Source: Herbaspirillum huttiense (GTDB lineage Bacteria > Pseudomonadota > Gammaproteobacteria > Burkholderiales > Burkholderiaceae_D). Taken from it: a stretch of 64,000 nt of DNA. Both the position numbers and the translations under genes were made by a program. The notes beneath the pieces were generated by a model. It searched no databases. It was given only the letters and a program-made list of their open reading frames with translations, and was not told the origin of the DNA. The stretch is from positions 5,270,001-5,334,000 of the forward strand of contig NZ_CP037993.1 of assembly GCF_004367745.1 (NCBI RefSeq). The letters are read 5' to 3'. Positions 21,164-33,669 of the stretch are shown piece after piece. Within the stretch, counting starts at the first letter, position 1. Every line of letters starts with the position of its first letter.

Positions 21164-22117
21164 ATGGATACGTCGCAACGGGTACGCGCCATCATTTCCT
21201 TCGTGCAGGCAGCCGATAGCGGCAGCTTCGCCGGCGCCGGGCGGATACTCGGCATCTCCTCAGCTGCGGTGAGCCAGAATGTGGCCGGATTGGAAAGCGC
21301 CCTGGGCGTGCGTCTCATGAACCGCACCACGCGCAGCCTGAACCTGACCGAGGAAGGCAGTGCCTTCCTTCGTCAGGCACGCATTGCGCTCGATGCACTG
21401 GAACAGGCGACCGATGACGTGGTGGCGGCACGCGCGACACCGACCGGACGCGTGCGCATCTCCACCAGTGCGGCCTTCGGCCGCGAACAATTGCTGCCGC
21501 TGCTGCCCGGCCTGAGCCAGCGCTATCCGGCCTTGTCGGTGGAAGTGGATTTCGATGACCGCCTCAGCGAGCTGGTGCAGGACGGCTATGACCTGGCGAT
21601 CCGGGGCGGACGCATCGCCGATTCGTCGCTGGTCTCGCGCAGCATCTGCAAACTGAACCTGGCGCTGGTCGCCAGTCCCGCCTATCTGGAGGCCCGCGGC
21701 ACACCGCGCCGCCCGCAGGATCTGCACAAGCACAGCCTGATTACGCGCAAGTTCCTGGGCGGCAAGGTGTCACCCTGGAATTTCCAGGGCAGCGACGGCA
21801 GCATCATGACCTGGAATACCGAACACGCACTGCTGACCTTGTCCTCGCCCGAAGCGCTGGTCCAGGCGGCCCTCGCCGGCATGGGTATCGCCGAAGTCGG
21901 GGTGCATCACGCGTGGCGCTATCTGCAACGCGGGCGATTGAAGGTGCTGCTCTTGCGCAGCCATCATCCGGGCAACTACGAAATGTGCCTGCAATACCCG
22001 CACCGGGCGCTGATCGCGCCGCGTGTGCGGGTGGCGGTGGATTACCTGCTGGAAGGCTTCGCCGCCAGCGAGGAACTGCACGTGCCGCTGGCCGCCTTGC
22101 GCAAGTACGCGGCCTGA
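21164..22117 (+). CDS. LysR-family transcriptional regulator
   Basis: A 317-residue LysR regulator with GGGGAG upstream of the ATG. Its HTH region is IISFVQAADSGSFAGAGRILG and ISSAAVSQNVAGLESALGVRL, followed by NRTTRSLNLTEEG, as in the CrgA/AaeR-like branch. It is divergent from the flavodoxin-like quinone reductase gene, the classic arrangement for a LysR regulator and its target. Its stop is 13 bp from the stop of the convergent cyclophilin-like gene. Confidence 0.92.
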   Translation: MDTSQRVRAIISFVQAADSGSFAGAGRILGISSAAVSQNVAGLESALGVRLMNRTTRSLNLTEEGSAFLRQARIALDALEQATDDVVAARATPTGRVRISTSAAFGREQLLPLLPGLSQRYPALSVEVDFDDRLSELVQDGYDLAIRGGRIADSSLVSRSICKLNLALVASPAYLEARGTPRRPQDLHKHSLITRKFLGGKVSPWNFQGSDGSIMTWNTEHALLTLSSPEALVQAALAGMGIAEVGVHHAWRYLQRGRLKVLLLRSHHPGNYEMCLQYPHRALIAPRVRVAVDYLLEGFAASEELHVPLAALRKYAA

Positions 22118-22130
22118 GTACGGATGCGAT

Positions 22131-22595
22131 TCATTCCTGCTCGATCAGGGCCAGATAAGGACCAGGCTGGCGCAGGACCGCGATGTCTCCGGTGATGTGG
22201 CCCAGCTTGACCAATCCCTTCGAGTAAGCGAAGTCCTTGTAGAACAGGGCGATATTGCCCCAGGGCGCATAGAAGGCGATATCCCCGCTGCGCGGCGTAT
22301 AGCCCTCGGGCTCGCCGCGCGTGGCCAGCTTGCGTGGCAGCTGGGCAATCTTCTCGGTCTGGTTGTAGTCGGACAGCTCCAGCGTCAGCGGCAACAGGGC
22401 GGCGAAGTCGCGGGCAGCCGGACCGGGTTCGAGACGCGCGGTCAGGACGGTGTCGGCGATGGTGATGCGCAGGGTCATGGGCAGGCTCTTGGCAGAGGTA
22501 CGGGTCTGGGCCGCTGCCGTCATCGGGCAGAGGCTCATCGCGCCGGCCATCAGCACGGCAATCACGGTCAGGCGCGGCAGGAAAGAGGAAGACAT
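22131..22595 (-). CDS. Exported cyclophilin-like fold protein
   Basis: A 154-residue protein: a signal peptide (FLPRLTVIAVLMAGAMSLCPMTAAAQ) followed by a small beta barrel of the Cyclophil_like2 type. Typical segments are MTLRITIADTVLTARLE, LLPLTLELSDYNQTEKIA and TPRSGDIAFYAPWGNIALFY. The family has a cyclophilin fold, but no isomerase activity is established. In many genomes it sits with quinone or aldehyde oxidoreductases under a LysR regulator, as here. Its promoter region carries one copy of the 50-bp element shared with xdhC and the molybdenum hydroxylase operon. Confidence 0.8.
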   Translation of the reverse strand: MSSSFLPRLTVIAVLMAGAMSLCPMTAAAQTRTSAKSLPMTLRITIADTVLTARLEPGPAARDFAALLPLTLELSDYNQTEKIAQLPRKLATRGEPEGYTPRSGDIAFYAPWGNIALFYKDFAYSKGLVKLGHITGDIAVLRQPGPYLALIEQE

Positions 22596-22648
22596 GGGCA
22601 GTCCGGAGGCAATCAATCTGACCTGATTGTCGCTGCATCATCGGTCCG

Positions 22649-22698
22649 TGATTAGTCCCGCCGGGCTGAATGCGGTCATCAGTCCAGCTTATGAATCA
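22649..22698. promoter_or_regulatory. Shared 50-bp operator-like element, copy C
   Basis: A 50-bp stretch that aligns without gaps to copies at 26937 and 32523. It has TGATTAG at the left, CCGGGCT and AAT in the centre and GCTTATGAAT at the right; 36 of 50 bases match the 32523 copy by hand count. It begins 54 bp upstream of the cyclophilin-like gene and lies next to a LysR gene that may encode its binding protein. Confidence 0.7.
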
Positions 22699-22710
22699 GG
22701 CACCCTGTCA

Positions 22711-23622
22711 TCACCCCGGCTGACGTGGCCGGTTTTCGTAGCGCAGGGCATTGACCACCAGCGAGAACGCCGGCGAAGGCTGGCGGCGGCTGGGATAGTA
22801 GAGGTGATAGCCCTCGAAGACCGGACACCAGTCCTCCAGCACCCGTACCAGCTGGCCGCTCTCCAGATAGGATTGAAGGTCGTCTTCGGGCAGCAGGACC
22901 ACGCCCAGCCCGGCCAAGGCCGCATCGATCTGCGGCGGCACGGTGTTGAAGATGAGCGAACCGTCGACACGCACGTTGATCTTTTCGCCGTCCTTTTCAA
23001 AATCCCATACGTAAAGCCCGCCCGAGGACGGCATGCGCTGGTTGATGCAATCCTGGGCCATCAGGTCGTTCGGATGCAGCGGCACCGGATAGCGTGTGAA
23101 GTACTCGGGCGAGGCCGCCACCACCATGCGCAGCGGCGGGCCGATGGGCACCGCGATCATGTCGCGGTCGATGGTCTTTCCCCAGCGCACGCCGGCATCG
23201 AAGCGGTCGGCCACGATGTCGCGCAGGGCGTAGCTCATGTCGAATTCCAGCTTGATGTCGGGATATTGCTGCAACAGCGGGGCCAGCTTGGGCAGCAGCA
23301 CGCGCTGGATCATGCCGTCGCCGCAGGTGATGCGCACGGTGCCACCAGGTTTTTCGCGCAGTGCAGTGAGGGCATCGAGCTCGGCTTCGATCTCGTCGAA
23401 GCGGTTGCCGATCGACTGGATCAGGCGCTCGCCAGCGGGCGTGAGCGAGATGCTGCGCGTGGTGCGGGTCAGCAGGCGGATCTGCAGGCGCTCTTCGAGG
23501 CCGCGGATGGCTTGCGACAGCGCGGATTGCGTCACGCCCAGCGTGGCGGCGGCACGCGTGAAACTGCCCTCGCGCGCCACGGTGACGAAACCCAGCAAGT
23601 CATTGAGATTGCGTTTGATCAT
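22711..23622 (-). CDS. LysR-family transcriptional regulator, candidate master of the shared operator
   Basis: A 303-residue LysR regulator with HTH segments LLGFVTVAREGSFTRAAATLG and VTQSALSQAIRGLEERLQIRL, then TRTTRSISLTPAGERL. The effector domain includes VDGSLIFNTVPPQIDAALAGLG, a motif common in LysR proteins that control aldehyde/quinone oxidoreductases. Copy C of the shared 50-bp element lies just behind it, and its own promoter (about 23717-23760) contains a looser AT-rich TGATTAG/CTAAT array that could be an autoregulatory site. It is divergent from an MFS exporter gene. Confidence 0.92.
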   Translation of the reverse strand: MIKRNLNDLLGFVTVAREGSFTRAAATLGVTQSALSQAIRGLEERLQIRLLTRTTRSISLTPAGERLIQSIGNRFDEIEAELDALTALREKPGGTVRITCGDGMIQRVLLPKLAPLLQQYPDIKLEFDMSYALRDIVADRFDAGVRWGKTIDRDMIAVPIGPPLRMVVAASPEYFTRYPVPLHPNDLMAQDCINQRMPSSGGLYVWDFEKDGEKINVRVDGSLIFNTVPPQIDAALAGLGVVLLPEDDLQSYLESGQLVRVLEDWCPVFEGYHLYYPSRRQPSPAFSLVVNALRYENRPRQPG

Positions 23623-23878
23623 GCAGCCACCCTTCCTGTGGTGAGCAATAAAGCCGGATCAGCCGGAGGCCGCGCCGATGAAACAAGGGGTCGGTACCGA
23701 AGGGGGACGGGATTCATTGATTAGTTTTTCTAATAGGGTAATTAAGGATTGATTACCTAGTCAATACGGCGCACGCGCGCGACACTGATTGCCTTCACAT
23801 TCTCCACGGCAAGCGCTGCGACCCGTGCATGCTGGTTTTCGGCGTGCTGCGGCGGGCACAGTCTTGCCCGACATCATC

Positions 23879-25108
23879 ATGAGCAGTTCCTCTTGCACCA
23901 CCTCTTCACTGCAGGCCGCCGACACCCCGGTACAGGCGCACTGGGGCGGCGTCTTCGCGATGACGCTCACGGCCTTTGCCCTGGTCGCTTCCGAATTCAT
24001 GCCGGTAAGCCTGTTGACGCCCATCGCACAGGATCTGGGCGTGAGCGAAGGCCTGGCCGGGCAAGCGATCTCGGTCTCTGGCGCCTTCGCCGTGCTCACC
24101 AGCCTGAGCATTGCGCGCCTGGCCGGGCAGCTGCCACGCAAGACGCTGCTGTTGTGGCTGACGGCGCTGATGATGATCTCCGGCCCGGTCATTGCGCTGG
24201 CCCCCAACTATCCGGTCTACATGGCCGGGCGCGTACTGATCGGCATCGCCATCGGCGGCTTCTGGTCGATGTCGGCCGCCGCCGCCATCCGCCTGGTGCC
24301 GCCGCAGGACGTGGCGCGTGCACTGGCCGTCTTCAATGGCGGCAATGCCCTGGCCACCGTCGTGGCCGCCCCGCTGGGCAGTTACCTCGGCGCACTCATC
24401 GGCTGGCGTGGCGCCTTCCTGTGCCTGGCACCGGTGGCCTTGCTGGCGCTGCTGTGGCAGGCGCTCAGCCTGCCGGCCATGCGTCCGGCCGCGCGCCACA
24501 CCGCGCCCACGCATCCGCTGGCCCTGCTGGCGACACCGCTGGTGGCACTGGGCATGGCGGGCGTGAGCCTGCTCTTCATGGGGCAGTTCACCCTCTTCAC
24601 CTATCTGCGCCCCTTCCTCGAAAGCGAAACGCGGGTGCAGGTGCAAACCCTGTCGCTGATCCTGCTGGCCATCGGCGTGGCCGGATTCATCGGTACTACG
24701 CTCATCGGACGGCTGCTGCGCCGTTCGTTCTACGGCACGCTGGTCTTCATCCCGCTGCTGATGGCCGTCATCGCCCTGGCGCTGGTGGCCTGCGGCCATC
24801 ACGTCCTGCCGGTCAGCTTGCTGCTGGCGCTGTGGGGTCTGGTCGCTACGGCCGCACCGGTGGGCTGGTGGTCGTGGGTGGCGCGCACCCTGCCGCACGA
24901 TGCCGAAGCCGGCGGCGGGCTGATGGTGGCGCTGGTGCAATTGGCCATCGGCCTGGGGTCCACCCTGGGCGGACTGCTGTTTGACCACGGCGGCCATCAC
25001 ATCACTTTCTTTGCCAGCGCAGGCGTGCTGCTGGCCGCAGCCTTGCTGGCAGCGCTCACGGCCCGCCAGGATCGCCGGCCATCTTCCAACGAAAGGACAT
25101 CTCCATGA
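23879..25108 (+). CDS. MFS transporter, sugar/nucleoside efflux type (NepI/AraJ-like)
   Basis: A 409-residue 12-helix major facilitator. The ATG giving MSSSSCTTSSLQAADTP is chosen, because the frame ahead of it is Arg/His-rich and untypical. First-helix segment VFAMTLTAFALVASEFMPVS, the loop RLAGQLPRKTLLL with the MFS A-like motif, and RVLIGIAIGGFWSMSAAAA match the DHA1 efflux branch that includes NepI and AraJ. The exported compound is unknown. The cupin gene that follows overlaps its stop by 4 bases, so the two are translated together. Confidence 0.88.
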   Translation: MSSSSCTTSSLQAADTPVQAHWGGVFAMTLTAFALVASEFMPVSLLTPIAQDLGVSEGLAGQAISVSGAFAVLTSLSIARLAGQLPRKTLLLWLTALMMISGPVIALAPNYPVYMAGRVLIGIAIGGFWSMSAAAAIRLVPPQDVARALAVFNGGNALATVVAAPLGSYLGALIGWRGAFLCLAPVALLALLWQALSLPAMRPAARHTAPTHPLALLATPLVALGMAGVSLLFMGQFTLFTYLRPFLESETRVQVQTLSLILLAIGVAGFIGTTLIGRLLRRSFYGTLVFIPLLMAVIALALVACGHHVLPVSLLLALWGLVATAAPVGWWSWVARTLPHDAEAGGGLMVALVQLAIGLGSTLGGLLFDHGGHHITFFASAGVLLAAALLAALTARQDRRPSSNERTSP

Positions 25109-25518
25109 AGATCATTCGCAACGGCAGCACCCCATCGGCCAAGGGACCGGCCTCCTTTTTCACCGGCAATGTGCGCATCGACAGTTTCTTCCAAGGTGAA
25201 GAACCGGCGCGCGCGGGCGGTGCCATCGTCACCTTCGAACCCGGTGCGCGCACCGTGTGGCACACCCATCCGCTGGGCCAGACCCTGATCGTGACGCAAG
25301 GCGTCGGCTGGACCCAATGCGAAGGCGGCCCGCGCACCGAGATCCGAGCCGGCGACGTGGTCTGGTGTCCGTGCCAGCGCCGTCACTGGCACGGTGCCAC
25401 CGACACCACTGCCATGACGCACGTGGCCATCACCGAACTGCTTGATGGCAAGAACGTGGAGTGGCTGGAGCCGGTCACCGATGCGCAGTATCTCGGTGGT
25501 GAAGTCGTCAGGGACTGA
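25105..25518 (+). CDS. Cupin-domain protein
   Basis: A 137-residue single-domain cupin. Motif 1 is readable as GARTVWHTHPLGQTLIVTQG (two His and a Gln as likely metal ligands), and motif 2 as GDVVWCPCQRRHWHGA with a further His pair. The start overlaps the MFS stop (ATGA). Close homologues are annotated as carboxymuconolactone-decarboxylase-linked or quercetinase-like cupins, but no reaction can be assigned. Partnering with an exporter suggests detoxification of the same compound. Confidence 0.85.
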   Translation: MKIIRNGSTPSAKGPASFFTGNVRIDSFFQGEEPARAGGAIVTFEPGARTVWHTHPLGQTLIVTQGVGWTQCEGGPRTEIRAGDVVWCPCQRRHWHGATDTTAMTHVAITELLDGKNVEWLEPVTDAQYLGGEVVRD

Positions 25519-25548
25519 GGCTCCCCCCCACACTTCGCTCAGCAATCA

Positions 25549-25588
25549 AAAAATCGGGCGGACACCTTGTGGGTGCCCGCCCGATTTC
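25549..25588. terminator. Bidirectional terminator between cupin and alcohol dehydrogenase genes
   Basis: The arms AAATCGGGCGG-ACACC (25551-25566) and GGGTG-CCCGCCCGATTT (25571-25587) form a long GC-rich stem around a short TTGT loop. A-runs on the left and T residues on the right let it serve both converging genes. Confidence 0.85.
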
Positions 25589-25620
25589 GTTCACTACGAT
25601 GTCAGGTCAGCCGTTGGCCC

Positions 25621-26670
25621 TCAGGCGGCCATGCTGGCGTTGTCGATCACGAAGCGATACTTGATGTCGCCCTTGAGCATGCGCTCGTAGGCAGTGTTGA
25701 TTTCTTCGGCGCGGATCAGCTCGATGTCGGCCACGATGTTGTGCTTGGCGCAGAAGTCCAGCATCTCCTGGGTTTCAGGGATGCCGCCGATCAACGAACC
25801 GGCCAGCGAACGGCGCTTCATGATGAGGCTGAAGACATTCGGCGACGGGTGCGGCGTGGCTGGTGCGCCGACCAGGGTCATGGTGCCTTCACGCTTCAGC
25901 AGCGAGAGGAAGGCATCGAGGTCGTGCGGTGCCGCCACGGTGTTGAGGATGAAGTCGAAGCTCTTGGCATGCGCGGCCATCTCTTCGGCATTGCGCGAGA
26001 CCACCACTTCATCGGCACCCAGGGCCTTGGCATCGGCACGCTTGGAATCCGAGGTGGTGAAGGCCACCACGTGCGCACCCATGGCGTGCGCAATCTTGAT
26101 GCCCATGTGGCCGAGGCCGCCGATGCCGACCACACCGACCTTCTTGCCGGGACCGGCACCCCAGTGGCGCAGCGGCGAATAGGTGGTGATGCCGGCGCAC
26201 AGCAGCGGGGCCACGGCGGCCAGGTCGGCTTCCGGATGGCGGACCGTCAGCACGTAGCGCTCGTGCACCACGATCTGCTGCGAGTAGCCACCCATGGTCC
26301 AGCCGGGCGCGTCATCGGTCTTGCCGTTGTAGGTGCCGACCATGTTGTCGCAATAGTTTTCCAGGCCTTCTTCGCAATCCGGGCAGGTCTGGCAGCTGTC
26401 GACGATACAGCCCACGCCGACCAGGTCACCGACCTTGAATTTGCTGACGTGGTTGCCGACGGCGGCGACACGGCCCACGATCTCGTGACCGGGGACACAG
26501 GGGTATTGGGTGCCGGCCCATTCGGAACGGACCTGGTGCAGGTCGGAGTGGCAAATGCCGCAATAGGCGATGTCGATCTGCACATCGTGCGGTCCGGTGG
26601 CGCGGCGGGTGATTTCCAGATGTTCGAGTGGCTTGTCGGCGGCGTGTGCGCCATAAGCGTGGACTGGCAT
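25621..26670 (-). CDS. NADP-dependent zinc alcohol dehydrogenase (CAD/YahK family)
   Basis: A 349-residue medium-chain dehydrogenase. Catalytic zinc ligands are Cys40 in CGICHSD, His62 in PGHE and a Cys near 156 in LLCAGITTYS. The structural zinc set is Cys93, 96, 99 and 107 (CQTCPDC...C). The cofactor loop GIGGLGHMG is near 183-191. The family reduces many aldehydes, usually with NADPH. The gene faces away from xdhC, and the 371-bp region between them carries copy A of the shared 50-bp element, about 270 bp from this start, so co-regulation is possible. Confidence 0.92.
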   Translation of the reverse strand: MPVHAYGAHAADKPLEHLEITRRATGPHDVQIDIAYCGICHSDLHQVRSEWAGTQYPCVPGHEIVGRVAAVGNHVSKFKVGDLVGVGCIVDSCQTCPDCEEGLENYCDNMVGTYNGKTDDAPGWTMGGYSQQIVVHERYVLTVRHPEADLAAVAPLLCAGITTYSPLRHWGAGPGKKVGVVGIGGLGHMGIKIAHAMGAHVVAFTTSDSKRADAKALGADEVVVSRNAEEMAAHAKSFDFILNTVAAPHDLDAFLSLLKREGTMTLVGAPATPHPSPNVFSLIMKRRSLAGSLIGGIPETQEMLDFCAKHNIVADIELIRAEEINTAYERMLKGDIKYRFVIDNASMAA

Positions 26671-27041
26671 GGGGATCTCCTCAGTAAACGGGCCAATAAG
26701 CTGGCGTTGAGAAAGAACAGGTCAGGGGTGGGCAACCTGTCTTGAAAATGGATGATTGTGGCGTCCGGCAAGCCGAGAAGACAGACCTATTTCGCGATGA
26801 TTCTTGCCTAAAATTCCGAGGCCATCGCGAAGACAAGCGCGTCATTCCCGCGACATCCGCTACCGCGCGCCCCGGCAGAATGGCATGCGGACACACTGCG
26901 TGCGAGCTTGCAGATTCTGCCTCATCATTGGTACCGGGATTAGCCGGACCGGGCTTAATTGGTCTATAAGCCCGGCTAATTAGTTCCTGTGCCGATGTCA
27001 TGGCAGACTGGACCTCCGATCGAACGTAAACTGATGCCGCA
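26671..27041. other. Divergent intergenic region between the alcohol dehydrogenase and xdhC
   Basis: A 371-bp stretch without a supported gene. The part near the alcohol dehydrogenase is featureless apart from a ribosome site (GGAGATC on the minus strand). The part near xdhC carries the shared element at 26937-26986. Short frames here show no family character. Confidence 0.6.
26937..26986. promoter_or_regulatory. Shared 50-bp operator-like element, copy A
   Basis: The most symmetrical of three copies: outer arms ATTAGCC and GGCTAAT, inner arms GGGCTTA and TAAGCCC. It matches the copy at 32523 at 37 of 50 positions by hand count, with no gap. It ends 56 bp before the xdhC start. Confidence 0.75.
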
Positions 27042-28055
27042 ATGAACGATACTTCCGACCTCAAGGTCTTGCGCGCCCTGCGCGAATGGCGGCGCAATGG
27101 GCGCAGTGCGCTGCTGGCCACCGTGGTTTCGACCTGGGGCTCGTCGCCGCGTCCGGTCGGCTCGCAACTGGCCATCCGTGACGATGGCCGGCTCATCGGT
27201 TCGGTCTCCGGCGGCTGCATCGAGGATGACCTGCTGTTCCAGTACCTGCGCCAGCGCCCCGCCACATGGGGCCAGGCAGGATCACCGCAACAGGTGCGCT
27301 ACGGCATCGATGCCGATGAAGCGCATCGCTTCGGCCTGCCCTGCGGCGGCACGCTGGCGCTGCTGCTCGAATTCGATCCCCCGGCGGGCATGCTGGACGA
27401 ACTGGTGAGTACGCTGGAACGTGGCCAACTGGTCTGTCGCCGCGTCGATTGCCACGATGGCAGCAGCCGCATCGAGGTCAGCGAGTCACCGGCCGAACTG
27501 CTGTTCGATGGCAATACGCTGCGCCATACCATGGGGCCGGATTACCGGATGCTGTTGATCGGTGCCGGCATGCTGGCCGAATACCTGGCGACGATGGCGC
27601 TCTTCAACGGCTTTGCGGTGACCATCTGCGATCCGCGTTCGGAATACCTGGGCAGCTGGTCGGTGGAGGGCGTGCGCATCGTCACCGACATGCCCGATGA
27701 TGCGGTGCTGGATTTCCGTCCCGATCAGCGCAGCTGCGTCATCGCCCTCACCCATGATCCCAAGCTGGATGACCTGGCACTGCTGGAAGCGGTGGCCAGT
27801 CCGGCGTTCTATGTCGGCGCCATTGGCTCGCGCCGCAACAGTGCCGCGCGCAAGGACCGCTTGATCACTCACTTCGAGCAGACCGAAGAAAGCCTGGCGC
27901 GCCTGCGCGGGCCCATCGGGCTCTATATCGGCAGCAAGACGCCTTCCGAAATCGCGGTGAGCGTGATGGCCGAGGTGCTGGCCGTCAAGAATGGCGTGGC
28001 CTTGACGCCGGTGCATTCGGTGGCGGCGATGAAGACGGCCGGTACTGCGTTCTAA
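27042..28055 (+). CDS. XdhC-family molybdenum cofactor maturation factor
   Basis: A 337-residue XdhC/CoxI protein. The N-terminal XdhC domain has LLATVVSTWGSSPRPVGSQL and IGSVSGGCIEDDLL, and the C-terminal Rossmann domain has MLLIGAGMLAEYLATMAL and YVGAIGSRRNSAARK. Family members sulfurate and insert the molybdenum cofactor into xanthine-dehydrogenase-type enzymes. The client here should be the Moco subunit at 29.5-31.8 kb, whose operon converges on this gene and shares the same upstream 50-bp element. Confidence 0.93.
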   Translation: MNDTSDLKVLRALREWRRNGRSALLATVVSTWGSSPRPVGSQLAIRDDGRLIGSVSGGCIEDDLLFQYLRQRPATWGQAGSPQQVRYGIDADEAHRFGLPCGGTLALLLEFDPPAGMLDELVSTLERGQLVCRRVDCHDGSSRIEVSESPAELLFDGNTLRHTMGPDYRMLLIGAGMLAEYLATMALFNGFAVTICDPRSEYLGSWSVEGVRIVTDMPDDAVLDFRPDQRSCVIALTHDPKLDDLALLEAVASPAFYVGAIGSRRNSAARKDRLITHFEQTEESLARLRGPIGLYIGSKTPSEIAVSVMAEVLAVKNGVALTPVHSVAAMKTAGTAF

Positions 28056-28098
28056 GTTTTCATCCTCCGCGCCAGCTTTTCCTCTTTCCTCCCGTCAT

Positions 28099-28134
28099 GA
28101 AAAAAGGACCGCTGCCTGCAAAGGTCAGCGGTCC
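28099..28134 (-). terminator. Terminator of the molybdenum hydroxylase operon
   Basis: The minus strand reads GGACCGCTG, an 11-base loop, CAGCGGTCC and then TTTTTT. It stands 26 bp after the cytochrome c stop. It could also stop transcription from xdhC in the other direction, though without a T-run. Confidence 0.85.
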
Positions 28135-28159
28135 GAACGGGACTTCATGAAAAAACGAT

Positions 28160-29518
28160 TCAGCGCATCTGCAAGACGATGGGATTGCTGCTGGCCGGAT
28201 TGGTGCGCTCACGCAGAGTCTTGACGTCGTCCACCTTGACCGCACCGCCATGATTGCCCCAGCTGCTGCGAATGAAGCTGAGCACCTCGGCAATCTCGGC
28301 ATCGCTCAACTGGCTGCGGAAGGGCGGCATGCGATACGAATCCGGTACGCCATCAGCCACCACGCGCACCGAGCCATTCAAGGTCACGTTGATGGCCGAG
28401 GCATCCTCCTTGGCCAGCGAGGAGACGGCACCGGCCAGCGGTGGAATCCACGGCGCACGCCCGCGTCCATCGACCGCATGGCAGGCCGCGCACTTGGCCA
28501 TGTAGGTGCGTGCAGCGGGGCTGTCCAGGCGTTGTGCGGCCAGGGCGGTGGTGGTGCCGGCATCGTATTTCCACGGTTCCCCATCGCGCTTGGGATCGCC
28601 CGGCAGCGACTTCAGGTAACGGGCGATGGCCTGCAGGTCCTGGTCGCTCAGGAATTGCGTTGAGTTGTTGAAGGCATCGGCCATGGAACCGAACACCACC
28701 GCGTGCTGGTTGCGGCCGGTCTTGAGGAATTGCACGACCTCGGCTTCACTCCAGCGTCCGATACCGGTATTGACGTCGCCGCGCAGGCTGGGGGCATACC
28801 AGCCATCCAGCAGCGCGCCGGACAGGTACAACGGATGGCCACCGTCGAGCCCCTTCTCGTTCATCGCCACGCCGCGCGGCGTGTGGCAGCTGCCGCAGTG
28901 GCCCGCACCCTGCACCAGATAGGCACCGCGATTCCAGAGGGCATCCTGTTTCGGATCGGGCTGGTAGGGATGCGGGCTGGTGAAGGCCAGATTCCAGAAC
29001 GCCAGCGGCCAGCGCATGTTGAGCGGCCACGGGATGTCGCTCTCCTGGTTGGCCTGCACCACCGGTTTCACGCCATGCATGAAGTAGGCATAGAGCGCGC
29101 TCACATCCTCATCCGACATCTTGGCGTAGGACGGATAGGGCATGGCCGGATAGAGCCGGTGCCCATCGCGTGCCACACCGTGACGCAGCGCTCGGTCGAA
29201 TTCGGCCAGACTGTAGTCACCGATGCCGCTGCCGCGGTCGGGCGTGATGTTGGTGGCGTAGATGGCACCGAGCGGAGTGGCCATCTCCAGGCCACCGGCG
29301 AAGGGCTTGCTCTTGGGCGTGCTGTGGCAGGCCACGCAATCGGCCTGGCGCGCCACATACTCGCCGCGCTGGATCAGCCCGGCGGAGGGTGGCGGCGGCG
29401 CAGCTGCGCCGTCGAAAGGCGAGGCCGGAGTGCGCAGGGCGACCCACGCTGCGGCGATCACCAGCGCCGCGAAGATCAGCAGGAAGACGCGCAGCTTGCC
29501 GTTTTTTTGATCAGTCAT
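28160..29518 (-). CDS. Triheme cytochrome c, electron acceptor of the molybdenum hydroxylase
   Basis: A 452-residue cytochrome with an N-terminal membrane anchor (VFLLIFAALVIAAAWVAL) and three heme motifs: CVACH at 61-65, CGSCH near 210 and CAACH near 365. It has the same architecture as the gluconate dehydrogenase cytochrome at 15.1 kb. As the last gene of the operon, 18 bp after the Moco subunit, it should receive electrons from the periplasmic hydroxylase and feed them to quinone or oxidase. Confidence 0.92.
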   Translation of the reverse strand: MTDQKNGKLRVFLLIFAALVIAAAWVALRTPASPFDGAAAPPPPSAGLIQRGEYVARQADCVACHSTPKSKPFAGGLEMATPLGAIYATNITPDRGSGIGDYSLAEFDRALRHGVARDGHRLYPAMPYPSYAKMSDEDVSALYAYFMHGVKPVVQANQESDIPWPLNMRWPLAFWNLAFTSPHPYQPDPKQDALWNRGAYLVQGAGHCGSCHTPRGVAMNEKGLDGGHPLYLSGALLDGWYAPSLRGDVNTGIGRWSEAEVVQFLKTGRNQHAVVFGSMADAFNNSTQFLSDQDLQAIARYLKSLPGDPKRDGEPWKYDAGTTTALAAQRLDSPAARTYMAKCAACHAVDGRGRAPWIPPLAGAVSSLAKEDASAINVTLNGSVRVVADGVPDSYRMPPFRSQLSDAEIAEVLSFIRSSWGNHGGAVKVDDVKTLRERTNPASSNPIVLQMR

Positions 29519-29536
29519 GGATGCGTCAGTCTGCCA

Positions 29537-31789
29537 TCAGGCCTTGAAGGTGTAATGCGACAGCGGCATGCTGCGAATGCGCTGGCCCGTCAGGTGCGAA
29601 ACCGCATTGGCCACCGCCGGCGGCACGGCCGGCAGGGGCGGTTCGCCGATGCCGCCCATCTTGGCACCGCTCTCGATGATCTTGACGTGCACGCGCGCCA
29701 TGCGCTGCGGCGGCAGGATGGGATAGAGATCGTAATTGCGCGCCACCCGTGCGCCCTCCTTGTAGACCACTTCTTCCAGCAGCACCTGCGACAAGCCCAG
29801 CGTGACGGCTCCGTTGACCTGGGCCTCGACAATGGCCGGGTTGACGATGCGGCCCGGATCGATGGCTTCCCAGATGTCATGCACGCGCACCTGGCCGTTC
29901 TCGATGGAGACTTCGGCAATGGCAGCGGTTTCGGTACCGAAGGCTTTGGCCATGGCCACACCACGCGCGCGGCGAGTGCCGTCGGGGGCGGTGAAGGGGC
30001 CCCGCTTCCAGCCGCCGGAGAGATCCACGGCCGCCTTGAGCAGCGTGGTCAGGCGATCATTTCCCTGCAGCAGGCGCAGGCGCACATCGAGCGGATCCTG
30101 GCCGCCCTTGTCGGCGATCTCGTCGAGGAAGGCTTCGTAGAAAAAGTCATTCATCGAATTGCCGACCGAGCGCCAGTAACCGACGATGGGCGGATTCTTC
30201 ACAAACCGCTGGCCGATGCGCTTGTGGGCAAACTGATAGGACTTGCCGGCCAGCCCTTCCAGCGCAGTGGGGTCGATCTTGTTGCGCTTGTTGGCAATCG
30301 ATTCGGTCGGCCCTTCGGTGGCGCTGATGGCTTCGATGGCGATGGGGAAACCCTTGTCATCAAGACCGGCACGGAATTGCACCACCGCCATCGGACGCAT
30401 GGTATCGCGGGCGAATTCTTCCTCGCGGCTCCAGATCACCTTGACCGGGCGGCCCACGGCCTTGGCCAGCTGGATCGCCTGCGGGAAGGGCATGGCCGTC
30501 TCGTACAGGAAGTGCCGGCCGAAGAAGCCGCCCAGCAAGGGCGAATGGATGGTGATCTTCTCCGCAGGCAATCCGGTCTGCTTGGCGATGGCGGCCTGGA
30601 ACATTTCCGGGGCCTGGTTGGGCAGCCACATCTCCAGCGTGCCATCGGCATTGAAGCGGGCCGTGGCCGAAGGCGGTTCCAGCTGGGCATGATTGAGGTA
30701 CTGGCTGCGGTAGCTGGCTTGCACCACGGTCTTGGCACCGGCCAGGGCCTTGGTCACATCGCCTTCGGTCTCGGCTTCATCGACGGCCGCTGTGGACTTG
30801 GCCAACTGCTCGGCAAACCCTTCGGTGGAAAAGTCGGCCGGCACATAGCGGCGATCCGGTGCCGGGCCGGGATCGCTCCAGTCCACCTGCAGCGCTTCCA
30901 CCGCACGCTTGGCATTCCACCAGCGCTCGGCCACCACGGCGACAGCGCCCGGCAGGCGATGCACCGAATGCACGCCGGTCATCTTGCGTACCTCGGCTTC
31001 ATTGCGGATGCTGCCGACCTCCAGGCCCAAGCGCGGTGCGTGTTGCACGGCGGCCTGCAGCATGTTCTCGACTTGCGTGTCGATGCCGTATTGCGCGCGG
31101 CCCGTGGACTTGTCCAGCACGTCCAGCCGCGCCAGCGGCTTGCCGATCCAGCGGAATTGTTTGTCGTCCTTGAGCTTGATGGTCTCCAGCGGCGGATTGG
31201 GCAGGTCCAGCGCCTTGGGTGCGAGTTCGCCATAACTGATCGACCGGCCACTGGCCGCATGCATGACACGGCCGGGCTCGGTGGTGAGGCTTTCCAGCGG
31301 CACCTGCCATTGATTGGCGGCCGCCTGCAGCAGCAGGTGGCGCGCCAGTGCGCCCACACGCCGCATGGTCGGATAGCTGGTACGCACCGACATGCTGCCG
31401 CCGGTGATGCGGATGCCGATGTCCATCACCTTGTACTGGTCATTGGCGGGCGCGTTGTGGACCACGAAACGTGCGGGGTCGGCATCGAGTTCTTCGCCGA
31501 CGATCTGCGCCATGGCCGTGAAGATGCCCTGCCCGCCTTCGACGAAGGGACTTTGCAGGTGGATGCTGTTGTCGGGACGGATTTCCAGGAAGGCCGGTAC
31601 GCGCGTGCCGGGCGCTGCCGGCGCAGCATTGGCCTGGGCGCGGGCGTTGCCGGCCGGCAAGGTGAAACCGACCACCAGCGAACCGGCGGCGGTGCCGGCC
31701 GAGGCCAGCAGGAAGCGGCGGCGCGAGACATTGACCGGCTCACCATCCGGCAGCAATTCGTTCAGGGGAAGATCGTGCGGCTGGTTCAT
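29537..31789 (-). CDS. Molybdopterin-dependent aldehyde/isoquinoline oxidoreductase large subunit
   Basis: A 750-residue IorB-type subunit of the xanthine dehydrogenase family. A twin-arginine signal (SRRRFLLASAGTAAG, residues 22-36) shows export to the periplasm. Moco-domain segments include FVEGGQGIFTAMAQIVGEE, QAPEMFQAAIAKQTGLP and LLGGFFGRHFLYE, and the C terminus holds GGIGEPPLPAVPPAVANAV with the catalytic Glu. The start is the ATG overlapping the iron-sulfur subunit stop (ATGA). The substrate is probably an aldehyde or N-heteroaromatic; sequence does not decide. Maturation by the XdhC protein at 27 kb is inferred. Confidence 0.92.
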   Translation of the reverse strand: MNQPHDLPLNELLPDGEPVNVSRRRFLLASAGTAAGSLVVGFTLPAGNARAQANAAPAAPGTRVPAFLEIRPDNSIHLQSPFVEGGQGIFTAMAQIVGEELDADPARFVVHNAPANDQYKVMDIGIRITGGSMSVRTSYPTMRRVGALARHLLLQAAANQWQVPLESLTTEPGRVMHAASGRSISYGELAPKALDLPNPPLETIKLKDDKQFRWIGKPLARLDVLDKSTGRAQYGIDTQVENMLQAAVQHAPRLGLEVGSIRNEAEVRKMTGVHSVHRLPGAVAVVAERWWNAKRAVEALQVDWSDPGPAPDRRYVPADFSTEGFAEQLAKSTAAVDEAETEGDVTKALAGAKTVVQASYRSQYLNHAQLEPPSATARFNADGTLEMWLPNQAPEMFQAAIAKQTGLPAEKITIHSPLLGGFFGRHFLYETAMPFPQAIQLAKAVGRPVKVIWSREEEFARDTMRPMAVVQFRAGLDDKGFPIAIEAISATEGPTESIANKRNKIDPTALEGLAGKSYQFAHKRIGQRFVKNPPIVGYWRSVGNSMNDFFYEAFLDEIADKGGQDPLDVRLRLLQGNDRLTTLLKAAVDLSGGWKRGPFTAPDGTRRARGVAMAKAFGTETAAIAEVSIENGQVRVHDIWEAIDPGRIVNPAIVEAQVNGAVTLGLSQVLLEEVVYKEGARVARNYDLYPILPPQRMARVHVKIIESGAKMGGIGEPPLPAVPPAVANAVSHLTGQRIRSMPLSHYTFKA

Positions 31790-32400
31790 GCTTGCTCCTT
31801 GCCGGCCTTGGCCTTCTGGGTCTTGCTCCACTGGATGGCGGCGACGGCCCCCACGCCGACCACGGCGGCAGCGGCCACAGCGGCCTTGTTGACGCCATCG
31901 GCGCCGGCCGGTGCAGCGGGCGTGGTGGCCGCAGCAGCGGCGGCAGGTGCGCCCGTGCCGCCGGAGAGCTCATGCATGGCGGCCTTGATGGCGTTGTAGG
32001 TGCCGCAACGGCAGAGGTTGACCATGGCGCCGACGATCTGTTCGTCGCTGGGCTGGGCCACCTGTTTCAGCAAGGCGGTCGCAGCCATCACCTGGCCGGA
32101 CTGGCAATAGCCGCATTGCGGTACCTGGTGCCGGACCCAGGCATCGACCACTTTCTGGCCGACCGGATCGGCGGTGACCGCCTCAATGGTGGTGACCTTG
32201 CGTCCGGCCATGGCGCCGACGGGCATGACGCAGGAGCGCAGCACCTCGCCATCGACCATCACGGAACAGGCCCCGCACTGGGCCAGGCCGCAGCCGTATT
32301 TGGTGCCGGTCATGCCGAGTTCATCGCGGATCACCCACAGCAGGGGGGTCTCGGCATCGGAGGTGATCTGGTAAGTCTTGTCGTTGATCTGGAGTTCCAT
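31786..32400 (-). CDS. 2Fe-2S subunit of the molybdenum hydroxylase, with C-terminal hydrophobic tail
   Basis: A 204-residue IorA-type subunit carrying two 2Fe-2S clusters: Cys37, 42, 45 and 57 (plant-ferredoxin type, CGLAQCGAC) and Cys96, 99, 130 and 132 (CGYC and CRC). Start set at MELQINDKTYQ, the usual N terminus; the open frame upstream is unrelated. Beyond residue 150 it has an added Ala/Pro-rich linker and a hydrophobic stretch (172-190, AAVAAAAVVGVGAVAAI) followed by Lys-rich WSKTQKAKAGKEQA, which is not part of the normal 150-residue family. This tail looks like a membrane anchor or lipid-facing helix. Confidence 0.92.
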   Translation of the reverse strand: MELQINDKTYQITSDAETPLLWVIRDELGMTGTKYGCGLAQCGACSVMVDGEVLRSCVMPVGAMAGRKVTTIEAVTADPVGQKVVDAWVRHQVPQCGYCQSGQVMAATALLKQVAQPSDEQIVGAMVNLCRCGTYNAIKAAMHELSGGTGAPAAAAAATTPAAPAGADGVNKAAVAAAAVVGVGAVAAIQWSKTQKAKAGKEQA

Positions 32401-32522
32401 GGTTCCTGCCATCGGGGTTGAGAACGCAAGCCAGCGCGGACGGGCGCTCTGGAGGGGAAGTGAAGGACGCAGCAAGGCGACACTAAACAGGATCCCCGCA
32501 TGATGGCGCATCACGCGGGGAC

Positions 32523-32572
32523 TGATTAGCTGAGCCGGGCTTAATGGGGATATTAGACGAGCTAATGAATTC
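32523..32572. promoter_or_regulatory. Shared 50-bp operator-like element, copy B
   Basis: Outer arms ATTAGC and GCTAAT with a CCGGGCTTAAT block inside. It stands 123 bp upstream of the 2Fe-2S subunit start, the head of the molybdenum hydroxylase operon. It matches copies at 26937 and 22649 in 37 and 36 of 50 positions by hand count, in the same orientation on the plus strand. Confidence 0.75.
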
Positions 32573-32648: not shown

Positions 32649-33098
32649 CTAGCTGGGGTCGGTCAGCTTGCGTGGCCTTCCGCCTTTCCTGCCATTTTCG
32701 CGTACGGCCAGAATCTTGGCCTCGCTGCTGCGGCTGCCGTTGCGGGCTGCGGCAACAGTGGTTGCCAACTTCATCAGAGAAGGGCTGGACGCAACCAGTC
32801 CTTCAATGGAGACATGCAGGTCCCGTTCCTCAAGACACAGGGCACTGCCGGCGTAGCCGATCTCGATCCGCCGCAATTCAGCTACGCTCAACGCAGCGAA
32901 CTCCGGATAGTTGTCGATGGGAAGCAGGATTCCGGTTTTGTCGGCGAAACAGATAGCCAGAGATTCGAGACCGGGCATATACGTTACCTCGACGGCCTGC
33001 AAACTGGAACGCCGTCGCTGCTGGCCCAAAGCAATGGCGTGCTCCAGAACTTCGTCGGTGACGGGAGAATTGTCACGCTTCTTTGCTTTGATCGTCAT
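32649..33098 (-). CDS. DUF2442-domain protein with basic C-terminal tail (antitoxin-like)
   Basis: A 149-residue protein. The ATG giving MTIKAKKRDNSPVTDEVLEHAI overlaps the DUF4160 stop by 4 bases. The central part matches DUF2442: VTYMPGLESLAICFADKTG and LRRIEIGYAGSALCLEERDLHVSIEGLV. The last 25 residues contain ENGRKGGRPRKLTDPS, an AT-hook-like GRPRK motif that suggests DNA binding. DUF4160 and DUF2442 genes occur together widely and are predicted to act as a toxin-antitoxin-like pair, without firm experimental proof known to me. The order toxin-like first, DNA-binding partner second, and the operator-like repeat at the promoter, fit such a role. Confidence 0.75.
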   Translation of the reverse strand: MTIKAKKRDNSPVTDEVLEHAIALGQQRRRSSLQAVEVTYMPGLESLAICFADKTGILLPIDNYPEFAALSVAELRRIEIGYAGSALCLEERDLHVSIEGLVASSPSLMKLATTVAAARNGSRSSEAKILAVRENGRKGGRPRKLTDPS

Positions 33099-33523
33099 AG
33101 TTCGATCTCCAAGGGACGTGCTTGTCCCGCAAGTTGCAATTCGGTCCGGTCGCTCAATGGCACGTAGCGTGCCCGGAGGATCGCGACGGCATTTCTTCGC
33201 CATACGCTGGGACTCACCACCTCTTCACTATCCTTGTCCCAGTGTTGATGATCAAGGCAAACCGACTGTTGGCTCAGCCACCAGCGCTGGCGAGCCAGCC
33301 TCAGATTCACCGGCTGCTCAATCACTTGTCTCAGCTCTTCCAGCAGCGATGCCGCCGGAGCAATCCATAGTGGATTCACGTCCCACAAGGCAACGCCGTT
33401 GTGCCAGAAGCTGAAGCGAAACCGGGCATCCCAGTGCCCATTACCCACGTGCACGTGCGGCGGGCAGTGCTCGTTGCGAGTAAAGAGGGAAACGCGCAAG
33501 CCCTTGTGCGAACAGATTTTCAT
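33095..33523 (-). CDS. DUF4160-domain protein (putative toxin-like partner)
   Basis: A 142-residue protein starting MKICSHKGLRVSLFTRNEHCPPHVHVGNG. The N-terminal part has the DUF4160 signature: a basic residue, then EHCPPHVHV, then a short beta hairpin ARFRFSFWHNGVALWDV. The longer frame upstream is not used because the start directly follows an inverted repeat with AGG in the ribosome-binding position. The C-terminal half (VIEQPVNLRLARQRWWL onward) is not typical of the short DUF4160 family and may be a fused or divergent extension. Function is unknown. Confidence 0.72.
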   Translation of the reverse strand: MKICSHKGLRVSLFTRNEHCPPHVHVGNGHWDARFRFSFWHNGVALWDVNPLWIAPAASLLEELRQVIEQPVNLRLARQRWWLSQQSVCLDHQHWDKDSEEVVSPSVWRRNAVAILRARYVPLSDRTELQLAGQARPLEIEL

Positions 33524-33524
33524 A

Positions 33525-33541
33525 AACCTAACCGTTAGGTT
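33525..33541. promoter_or_regulatory. 17-bp inverted repeat at the start of the DUF4160/DUF2442 pair
   Basis: AACCTAAC-C-GTTAGGTT is a perfect dyad with a single central base, immediately before the ATG of the DUF4160 gene. It includes the AGG of the ribosome binding site. It could be an autoregulatory operator or an mRNA hairpin that hides the ribosome site. Confidence 0.65.
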
Positions 33542-33640
33542 ATTTGAACGAGAGCCCCACGGCAAGTCCCGCGTTTGAGCGAGACGACCCACCAGCGGAC
33601 GCTCGGCGCAAATACAACAGATATGCAGATGGGGAGATGG

Positions 33641-33669
33641 AAACGGCGCTGTACTCAACAGCGCCGTTT
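33641..33669. terminator. 12-bp stem-loop between galM and the DUF4160 gene
   Basis: AAACGGCGCTGT and ACAGCGCCGTTT form a perfect 12-bp stem with a 5-base loop. The T-run is only TTT in each direction. It is likely the terminator for galM, whose stop is about 100 bp to the right on the minus strand. Confidence 0.55.

Follow-up and report, generated by a model that had tools for sequence, protein, structure and literature searches.

A four-copy intergenic element in Herbaspirillum huttiense as the probable operator of a LysR-type regulator

Results and Discussion

Four copies of one element within 10 kb

Analysis of a 64,000-nucleotide stretch of the Herbaspirillum huttiense genome (contig NZ_CP037993.1, positions 5,270,001 to 5,334,000; hereafter the window) indicates that a short element present there in four copies is very probably the operator of the LysR-type regulator encoded at 22711-23622. 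All four copies are intergenic and lie within 10 kb of each other (Table 1). An earlier reading of the window, made from the sequence only, had proposed three ungapped copies showing the same pattern, and all three are present on the plus strand (sites 1 to 3). It placed them at 22649, 26937 and 32523, where copies are indeed found, with the GATTAG beginning one base later. One additional copy, site 4, had been overlooked and was revealed by a relaxed search pattern.

Table 1. Sites, candidate -10 hexamers and genes of the window. G numbers designate genomes.
Feature	Position	Strand	Remarks
Site 1	22650..22692	+	faces cyc (left, minus strand); conserved in G101 and G026
Site 2	26938..26980	+	alcohol dehydrogenase left, xdhC right; conserved in G101 and G026, degenerate in G082 and G116
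Site 3	32524..32566	+	faces iorA-iorB-cytC (left, minus strand); in 5/5 genus genomes having iorB (E<=1e-200)
Site 4	23720..23762	-	LysR left (minus), MFS right (plus); counterparts upstream of LysR orthologs in G101, G026, G175, G084, G389, G112 and G147
-10-like hexamer GACAAT, for cyc	22626..22631	-
-10-like hexamer CAGAAT, alcohol dehydrogenase side of site 2	26914..26919	-
-10-like hexamer CATCAT, for iorA	32500..32505	-
-10-like hexamer GACACT, for MFS-cupin	23781..23786	+
Possible -10 CAGACT of xdhC	27004..27009	+	23 nt from box end of site 2; same in five aligned Herbaspirillum genomes
LysR-type regulator, proposed binder of the four sites	22711..23622	-	Pfam HTH_1 and LysR_substrate; co-occurrence with site
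cyc, cyclophilin-like protein (PF18050)	22131..22595	-
MFS transporter (PF07690)	23825..25108	+	start 23825 or 23879
Cupin	25105..25518	+	NCBIfam (R)-mandelonitrile lyase above cut-off; overlaps MFS stop
Zinc alcohol dehydrogenase	25621..26670	-	similar to aldehyde reductase Ahr, below Ahr cut-off
XdhC-family maturation factor	27042..28055	+
Cytochrome c subunit, three cytochrome c stretches	28160..29518	-
Molybdopterin-binding subunit (iorB-like)	29537..31831	-
[2Fe-2S] subunit (iorA-like)	31786..32400	-

The identities of 37/50 and 36/50 given in the sequence-only reading are exact for two pairs of 50-mers; the third pair shares 31/50 positions, and 29/50 columns are invariant across the three. 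Triples this alike are expected at about 1.5e-5 in random sequence of the window's length and composition. Since a single pair at 36/50 or better is expected about 0.19 times in random sequence, the significance rests on the triple. The pattern GATTAG-N5-CCGGGCT-N-AAT-N6-AT-N-AG-N-C-N2-GCT-N-AT, with up to 3 mismatches, matched three times in the 5.69-Mb genome, at sites 1 to 3, and a control pattern had no match. A close variant of it matched 5 of 294 family genomes, all from the same genus. The 21-base half pattern alone gave 9 matches in the window against 6.7 expected, which is not significant.

Because the pattern was derived from sites 1 to 3 themselves, the independent test consists in finding the element at additional promoters and in additional genera, and such copies were detected with both the pattern and its relaxed form. 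A matrix generated from the Herbaspirillum copies and applied to 80 loci found three more copies in Collimonas (L057), and further ones behind cytC in Oleiagrimonas (L088) and before iorA in Bradyrhizobium (L118). The relaxed pattern was built on the positions that these copies showed to matter. Among 34 genomes of the genus it gave 16 matches, distributed in 7 genomes, against 1 for a control pattern; for a further variant, applied to 10 chosen genomes, the numbers were 20 and 1. The element is neither a product of chance nor a dispersed repeat.

Predicted operator and promoter anatomy

The dyad had been taken in the sequence-only reading as a sign of a protein site, and it has the anatomy of a LysR site: ATNAG-N5-CTNAT, a T-N11-A box with dyad symmetry, is found in all four copies of the window. 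Toward the target gene the layout is this box, a 22-nt stretch and CTAATC or CTAGTC, though some copies depart from it. A hexamer placed exactly 18 nt beyond has a mean match to TATAAT of 3.52/6 in 21 copies. In a set of 12 copies taken from one genome per genus in six genera, some of them orthologous across genera, the mean at this offset was 3.67/6, against a mean of 1.36 (sd 0.42, largest 2.58) at the other offsets between 0 and 79, and a value of 3.67 was reached at offsets 10-30 in 0/5000 shuffles. From the -10-like hexamer at offset 18, the box is placed near -66 and the second half over the -35 region of the predicted transcription starts. These starts, near 22619 for cyc, 26907 for the alcohol dehydrogenase, 23793 for the MFS gene and 32493 for iorA, fall outside the copies, some 31 bp further downstream. 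This agrees with a published summary of LysR sites, which locates the box around -65, the activation half at -35 and gives the whole site a length of 50-60 bp (PMC8407307).

A second promoter toward xdhC is suggested by evidence from two genera: the CAGACT hexamer of the aligned Herbaspirillum genomes (Table 1) and a CACTAT at the matching offset in Collimonas. The predicted leader of the alcohol dehydrogenase from site 2 is long, about 237 nt. Within this leader, between site 2 and the gene, a block at 26777-26817 is largely conserved in five aligned Herbaspirillum genomes and may be a second promoter. Additionally, an inverted repeat at 32493-32521 (TCCCCGCATGATG-GCG-CATCACGCGGGGA) overlaps the predicted -10 of iorA. 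Its outer pairs co-vary in G116 (CTCCC...GGGAG) and one pair is broken in G082; there are hints here of a second protein site.

Genes facing the copies

The copies face cyc, the alcohol dehydrogenase, iorA and the MFS gene, and xdhC lies on the box side of site 2. The sequence-only reading had the copies upstream of cyc, xdhC and the molybdenum enzyme operon. This holds for cyc and iorA; for site 2, the geometry favours the alcohol dehydrogenase at least as much as xdhC. The same reading supposed that XdhC and its client enzyme are co-controlled, in agreement with the copies found beside both xdhC and iorA in Herbaspirillum and Collimonas; in G082 and G116 the copy between the alcohol dehydrogenase and xdhC is degenerate. 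The MFS gene and the mandelonitrile-lyase-like cupin gene share a four-base overlap and probably form one operon (23825-25518), which belongs to the target set and was omitted before. Site 4 is likely autoregulatory as well as facing this operon.

Two further observations were made on genes of this region. Cupin relatives occur in 7/12 examined loci of LysR paralogs of 48-57% identity. For a DUF2442 gene and the neighbour overlapping it (32649-33658), identity to the counterparts in four relatives is 65-80%, against mostly 88-99% for the flanking genes; judging from these values, the two form a fast-evolving pair.

The proposed regulator

The protein encoded at 22711-23622 carries an N-terminal HTH_1 domain (PF00126, 80.7 bits) and a C-terminal LysR_substrate domain (PF03466, 120.4 bits), both above cut-off. 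It reached the NCBIfam cut-off of no named LysR equivalog (YafC, TtdR, AaeR and others) among the best 25 of 54 rows, and its best equivalog score was 140.6, for YafC, whose cut-off is 470. The closest solved structure is 3mz1, a putative regulator (E 5.2e-37). The protein is also similar in sequence, over most of its length, to two LysR family entries of the PDB, 3szp/3t1b and 3hhg (E 6.8e-31 and 1.8e-25), which we take to be AphB and CrgA, respectively.

Close relatives of this regulator (E<=1e-120) were found in 9 of 392 family genomes, and 8 of them are intact. The element is present upstream of the LysR start in 8/8 intact orthologs (67-100% identity), with scores of 30.0-41.4; one of these copies belonged to the training set, one (G101) is identical to the training copy and six are independent. 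Among 26 control loci of other LysR-type genes, 25 scored 6.3 or less. The exception, L152, contains the cyc copy, and the element is found there because the locus neighbours it. With 8/8 intact orthologs carrying the element against 1/26 control loci, LysR 22711-23622, which was also the choice of the sequence-only reading, is the best supported regulator.

Weaker versions of the element were detected in 9/16 loci of paralogs of 48-57% identity, some of these loci overlapping each other, and the other 7/16 had no match above the control level. In the recognition-helix region, the seven orthologs compared share the sequence TQSALSQA, and eight paralogs of 48-57% identity have SQSALSHT or SQSALSQT. 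At the level of sequence, this difference is in line with a slightly different box. Three LysR genes of 41% identity scored 40.9 (G026), 8.3 (G246) and 2.3 (G082). The one in G026 adjoins a copy, and paralogs may therefore share the site.

Copies in other genomes and genera

Copies linked to orthologs of the regulator reach five other genera, and in these the half-sites are kept and the spacers are not. The Collimonas genome (L057/G175, which appears to be Collimonas sp. OK412, as G101 appears to be H. aquaticum IEH 4430, L055) has four copies: before iorA, beside xdhC, before cyc and at the LysR/MFS gap. The other side of its xdhC copy faces a small DUF4148 gene and not the alcohol dehydrogenase. 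Each of four more genomes has one pattern match: in G147 the LysR gene, the copy and an 80% identical alcohol dehydrogenase follow in sequence, in G389 and G112 the copy lies between LysR and cyc, and in G084 between LysR and MFS. The genome G026 has a fifth copy (L171 1501-1543), between its 41% identical LysR and an alpha/beta hydrolase gene, and a similar hydrolase, of the dienelactone hydrolase family, is encoded beyond the MFS gene in Collimonas. The MFS-side copy of G026 has lost the GACTAG end and the -10 (GTGAGT).

In the genus, iorB (E<=1e-200) is present in 5/34 genomes, and a copy lies before iorA in all five. The closest iorB has 40% identity in G389 and 38% in G084, and none was found at E<=1e-100 in G112, G147 and G246. 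Therefore, the molybdenum enzyme looks like an optional member of the regulon.

We also scanned the regions upstream of iorA in 80 loci. The box pattern (up to 1 mismatch) gave 19 matches against 8.3 in simple shuffles, which is too weak alone. The composite of box, N22 and CTARTC, with up to 3 mismatches, was found in 29/80 loci against 2.1% of 800 shuffles; many of the 29 come from related Rhizobium and are not independent, and the Collimonas copy lies outside the 400 bases scanned. A relative of LysR 22711-23622 with at least 45% identity is encoded in the fetched stretch of 8 of these 29 loci, and in the other 21 there is none. In 16/80 loci a LysR protein of 46-55% identity is encoded no more than 2.5 kb upstream of iorA, and 5 of the 16 show the composite. 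On these sequence comparisons, LysR regulators of iorAB operons may form a wider class to which this architecture belongs.

Some genomes break the strict link between regulator and element. The Herbaspirillum genomes G082 and G116 are without an ortholog of LysR 22711-23622; a divergent ortholog was considered and rejected, the best matches having only 41% and 34% identity. Both retain the iorA copy, at 1 and 2 mismatches, and the copy between the alcohol dehydrogenase and xdhC is degenerate. G082 has a cyc remnant (L043 868-1176, residues 61-161), interrupted by two in-frame stops, immediately behind the alcohol dehydrogenase gene; in G116 the genes that flank the LysR block are there and the block itself is absent. 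The simplest reading is that a deletion took the regulator and left an orphan iorA operator, which another regulator may still use. In G246 the LysR ortholog is without its DNA-binding part and the cyc copy is weak (score 13.5); the same genome has a copy (L048 11877-11919) that fits the relaxed pattern without a mismatch; the -10 hexamer of this copy is poor, and no gene is its clear target.

Alternative explanations

The retention of the iorA copy in G082 and G116, and the 41% identical LysR that adjoins a copy in G026, would fit an alternative in which the sites belong to another LysR, encoded at 21164-22117 or at a different chromosomal locus, with LysR 22711-23622 as a neighbour or a second user. 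We consider this unlikely, as the copy follows the orthologs of LysR 22711-23622 into the five other genera. The candidate at 21164-22117 was itself set aside: nothing in G082 or G116 matches it at E<=1e-60, its best match has 37% identity in the Collimonas genome G175 despite the four copies there, and its paralog loci (L052-L054) score 5.5 or less.

Ungapped copies of similar length with a dyad could also be expected from repetitive or mobile DNA of the REP type that occupies intergenic gaps by chance, and the sequence-only reading had named a genome-wide dispersed repeat as the finding that would overturn it. We give this explanation almost no weight, since searches of the 5.69-Mb genome yield three copies when up to 3 mismatches are allowed and four under the relaxed pattern, every one of them intergenic and in that one 10-kb region, while other genera keep the half-sites and not the spacers and the promoter geometry is fixed. 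The inverted repeats would also suit RNA structures in 5' leaders, such as a riboswitch or a terminator. The predicted starts downstream of the copies and the conservation of the box sequence itself argue against this, and we regard it as very improbable. The reading of the element as the operator of LysR 22711-23622 thus stays far ahead in our assessment.

Proposed mechanism and known systems

From what was computed, namely the four copies, their conservation, their link to LysR 22711-23622 and the fixed -10-like hexamer, we infer binding, the direction of the effect, an inducer, the transcription starts and the control of xdhC, as follows. A LysR tetramer would sit both on the T-N11-A box, some 66 bp before the transcription start, and on the second half (the CTAATC/CTAGTC end, over the -35 region) beside RNA polymerase, and the binding of an inducer by LysR would switch the promoter on. 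The four copies would link MFS-cupin, cyc, the alcohol dehydrogenase and iorAB-cytC to the divergent gap of the regulator itself; xdhC lies on the back side of the copy that it has in common with the alcohol dehydrogenase. The target genes are the only guide to the inducer, and they make an aldehyde or a related electrophile the likeliest one. These genes (an Ahr-like reductase, a molybdenum enzyme with cytochrome c, an MFS pump and a mandelonitrile-lyase-like cupin) point, as a guess, to an aldehyde/cyanohydrin response.

In furfural/HMF clusters (hmf), a LysR-type protein accompanies a molybdenum hydroxylase, and the likeness is that of a LysR-type gene, a molybdenum enzyme and a transporter in one region. 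The AldFGH-type aldehyde dehydrogenase of acetic acid bacteria has molybdenum, [2Fe-2S] and cytochrome c subunits encoded in one operon. The same three kinds of subunit are predicted from the iorAB-cytC genes. As for the operator, PMC8407307 describes two-part operators of LysR-type regulators that resemble it in the T-N11-A box at about -66, the second half over -35, the length of about 43-50 bp and a copy in the divergent gap. A literature search of limited depth found no report joining these target genes with an operator sequence of this kind. The wiring appears to be new, and the kind of system is ordinary.

More speculatively, and with low confidence, we consider that LysR 22711-23622 and its close relatives might run a so far unnamed aldehyde/cyanohydrin response of plant-associated bacteria. 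The lyase-like cupin and the efflux pump would take part in it, the reductase and the molybdenum-dependent oxidase would be two outlets for aldehydes, and XdhC would be induced with its client, all through one operator whose architecture would also stand upstream of iorAB in Rhizobium, Bradyrhizobium and others.

With this analysis, a LysR-type regulator that matches no named family gains a predicted operator, promoter positions and a small set of targets. The XdhC maturation factor would be tied to the molybdenum enzyme operon through a shared operator and not by gene order only. Moreover, the sister species without the regulator, in which one copy is kept and another has decayed, offer a small natural experiment on the fading of an operator.
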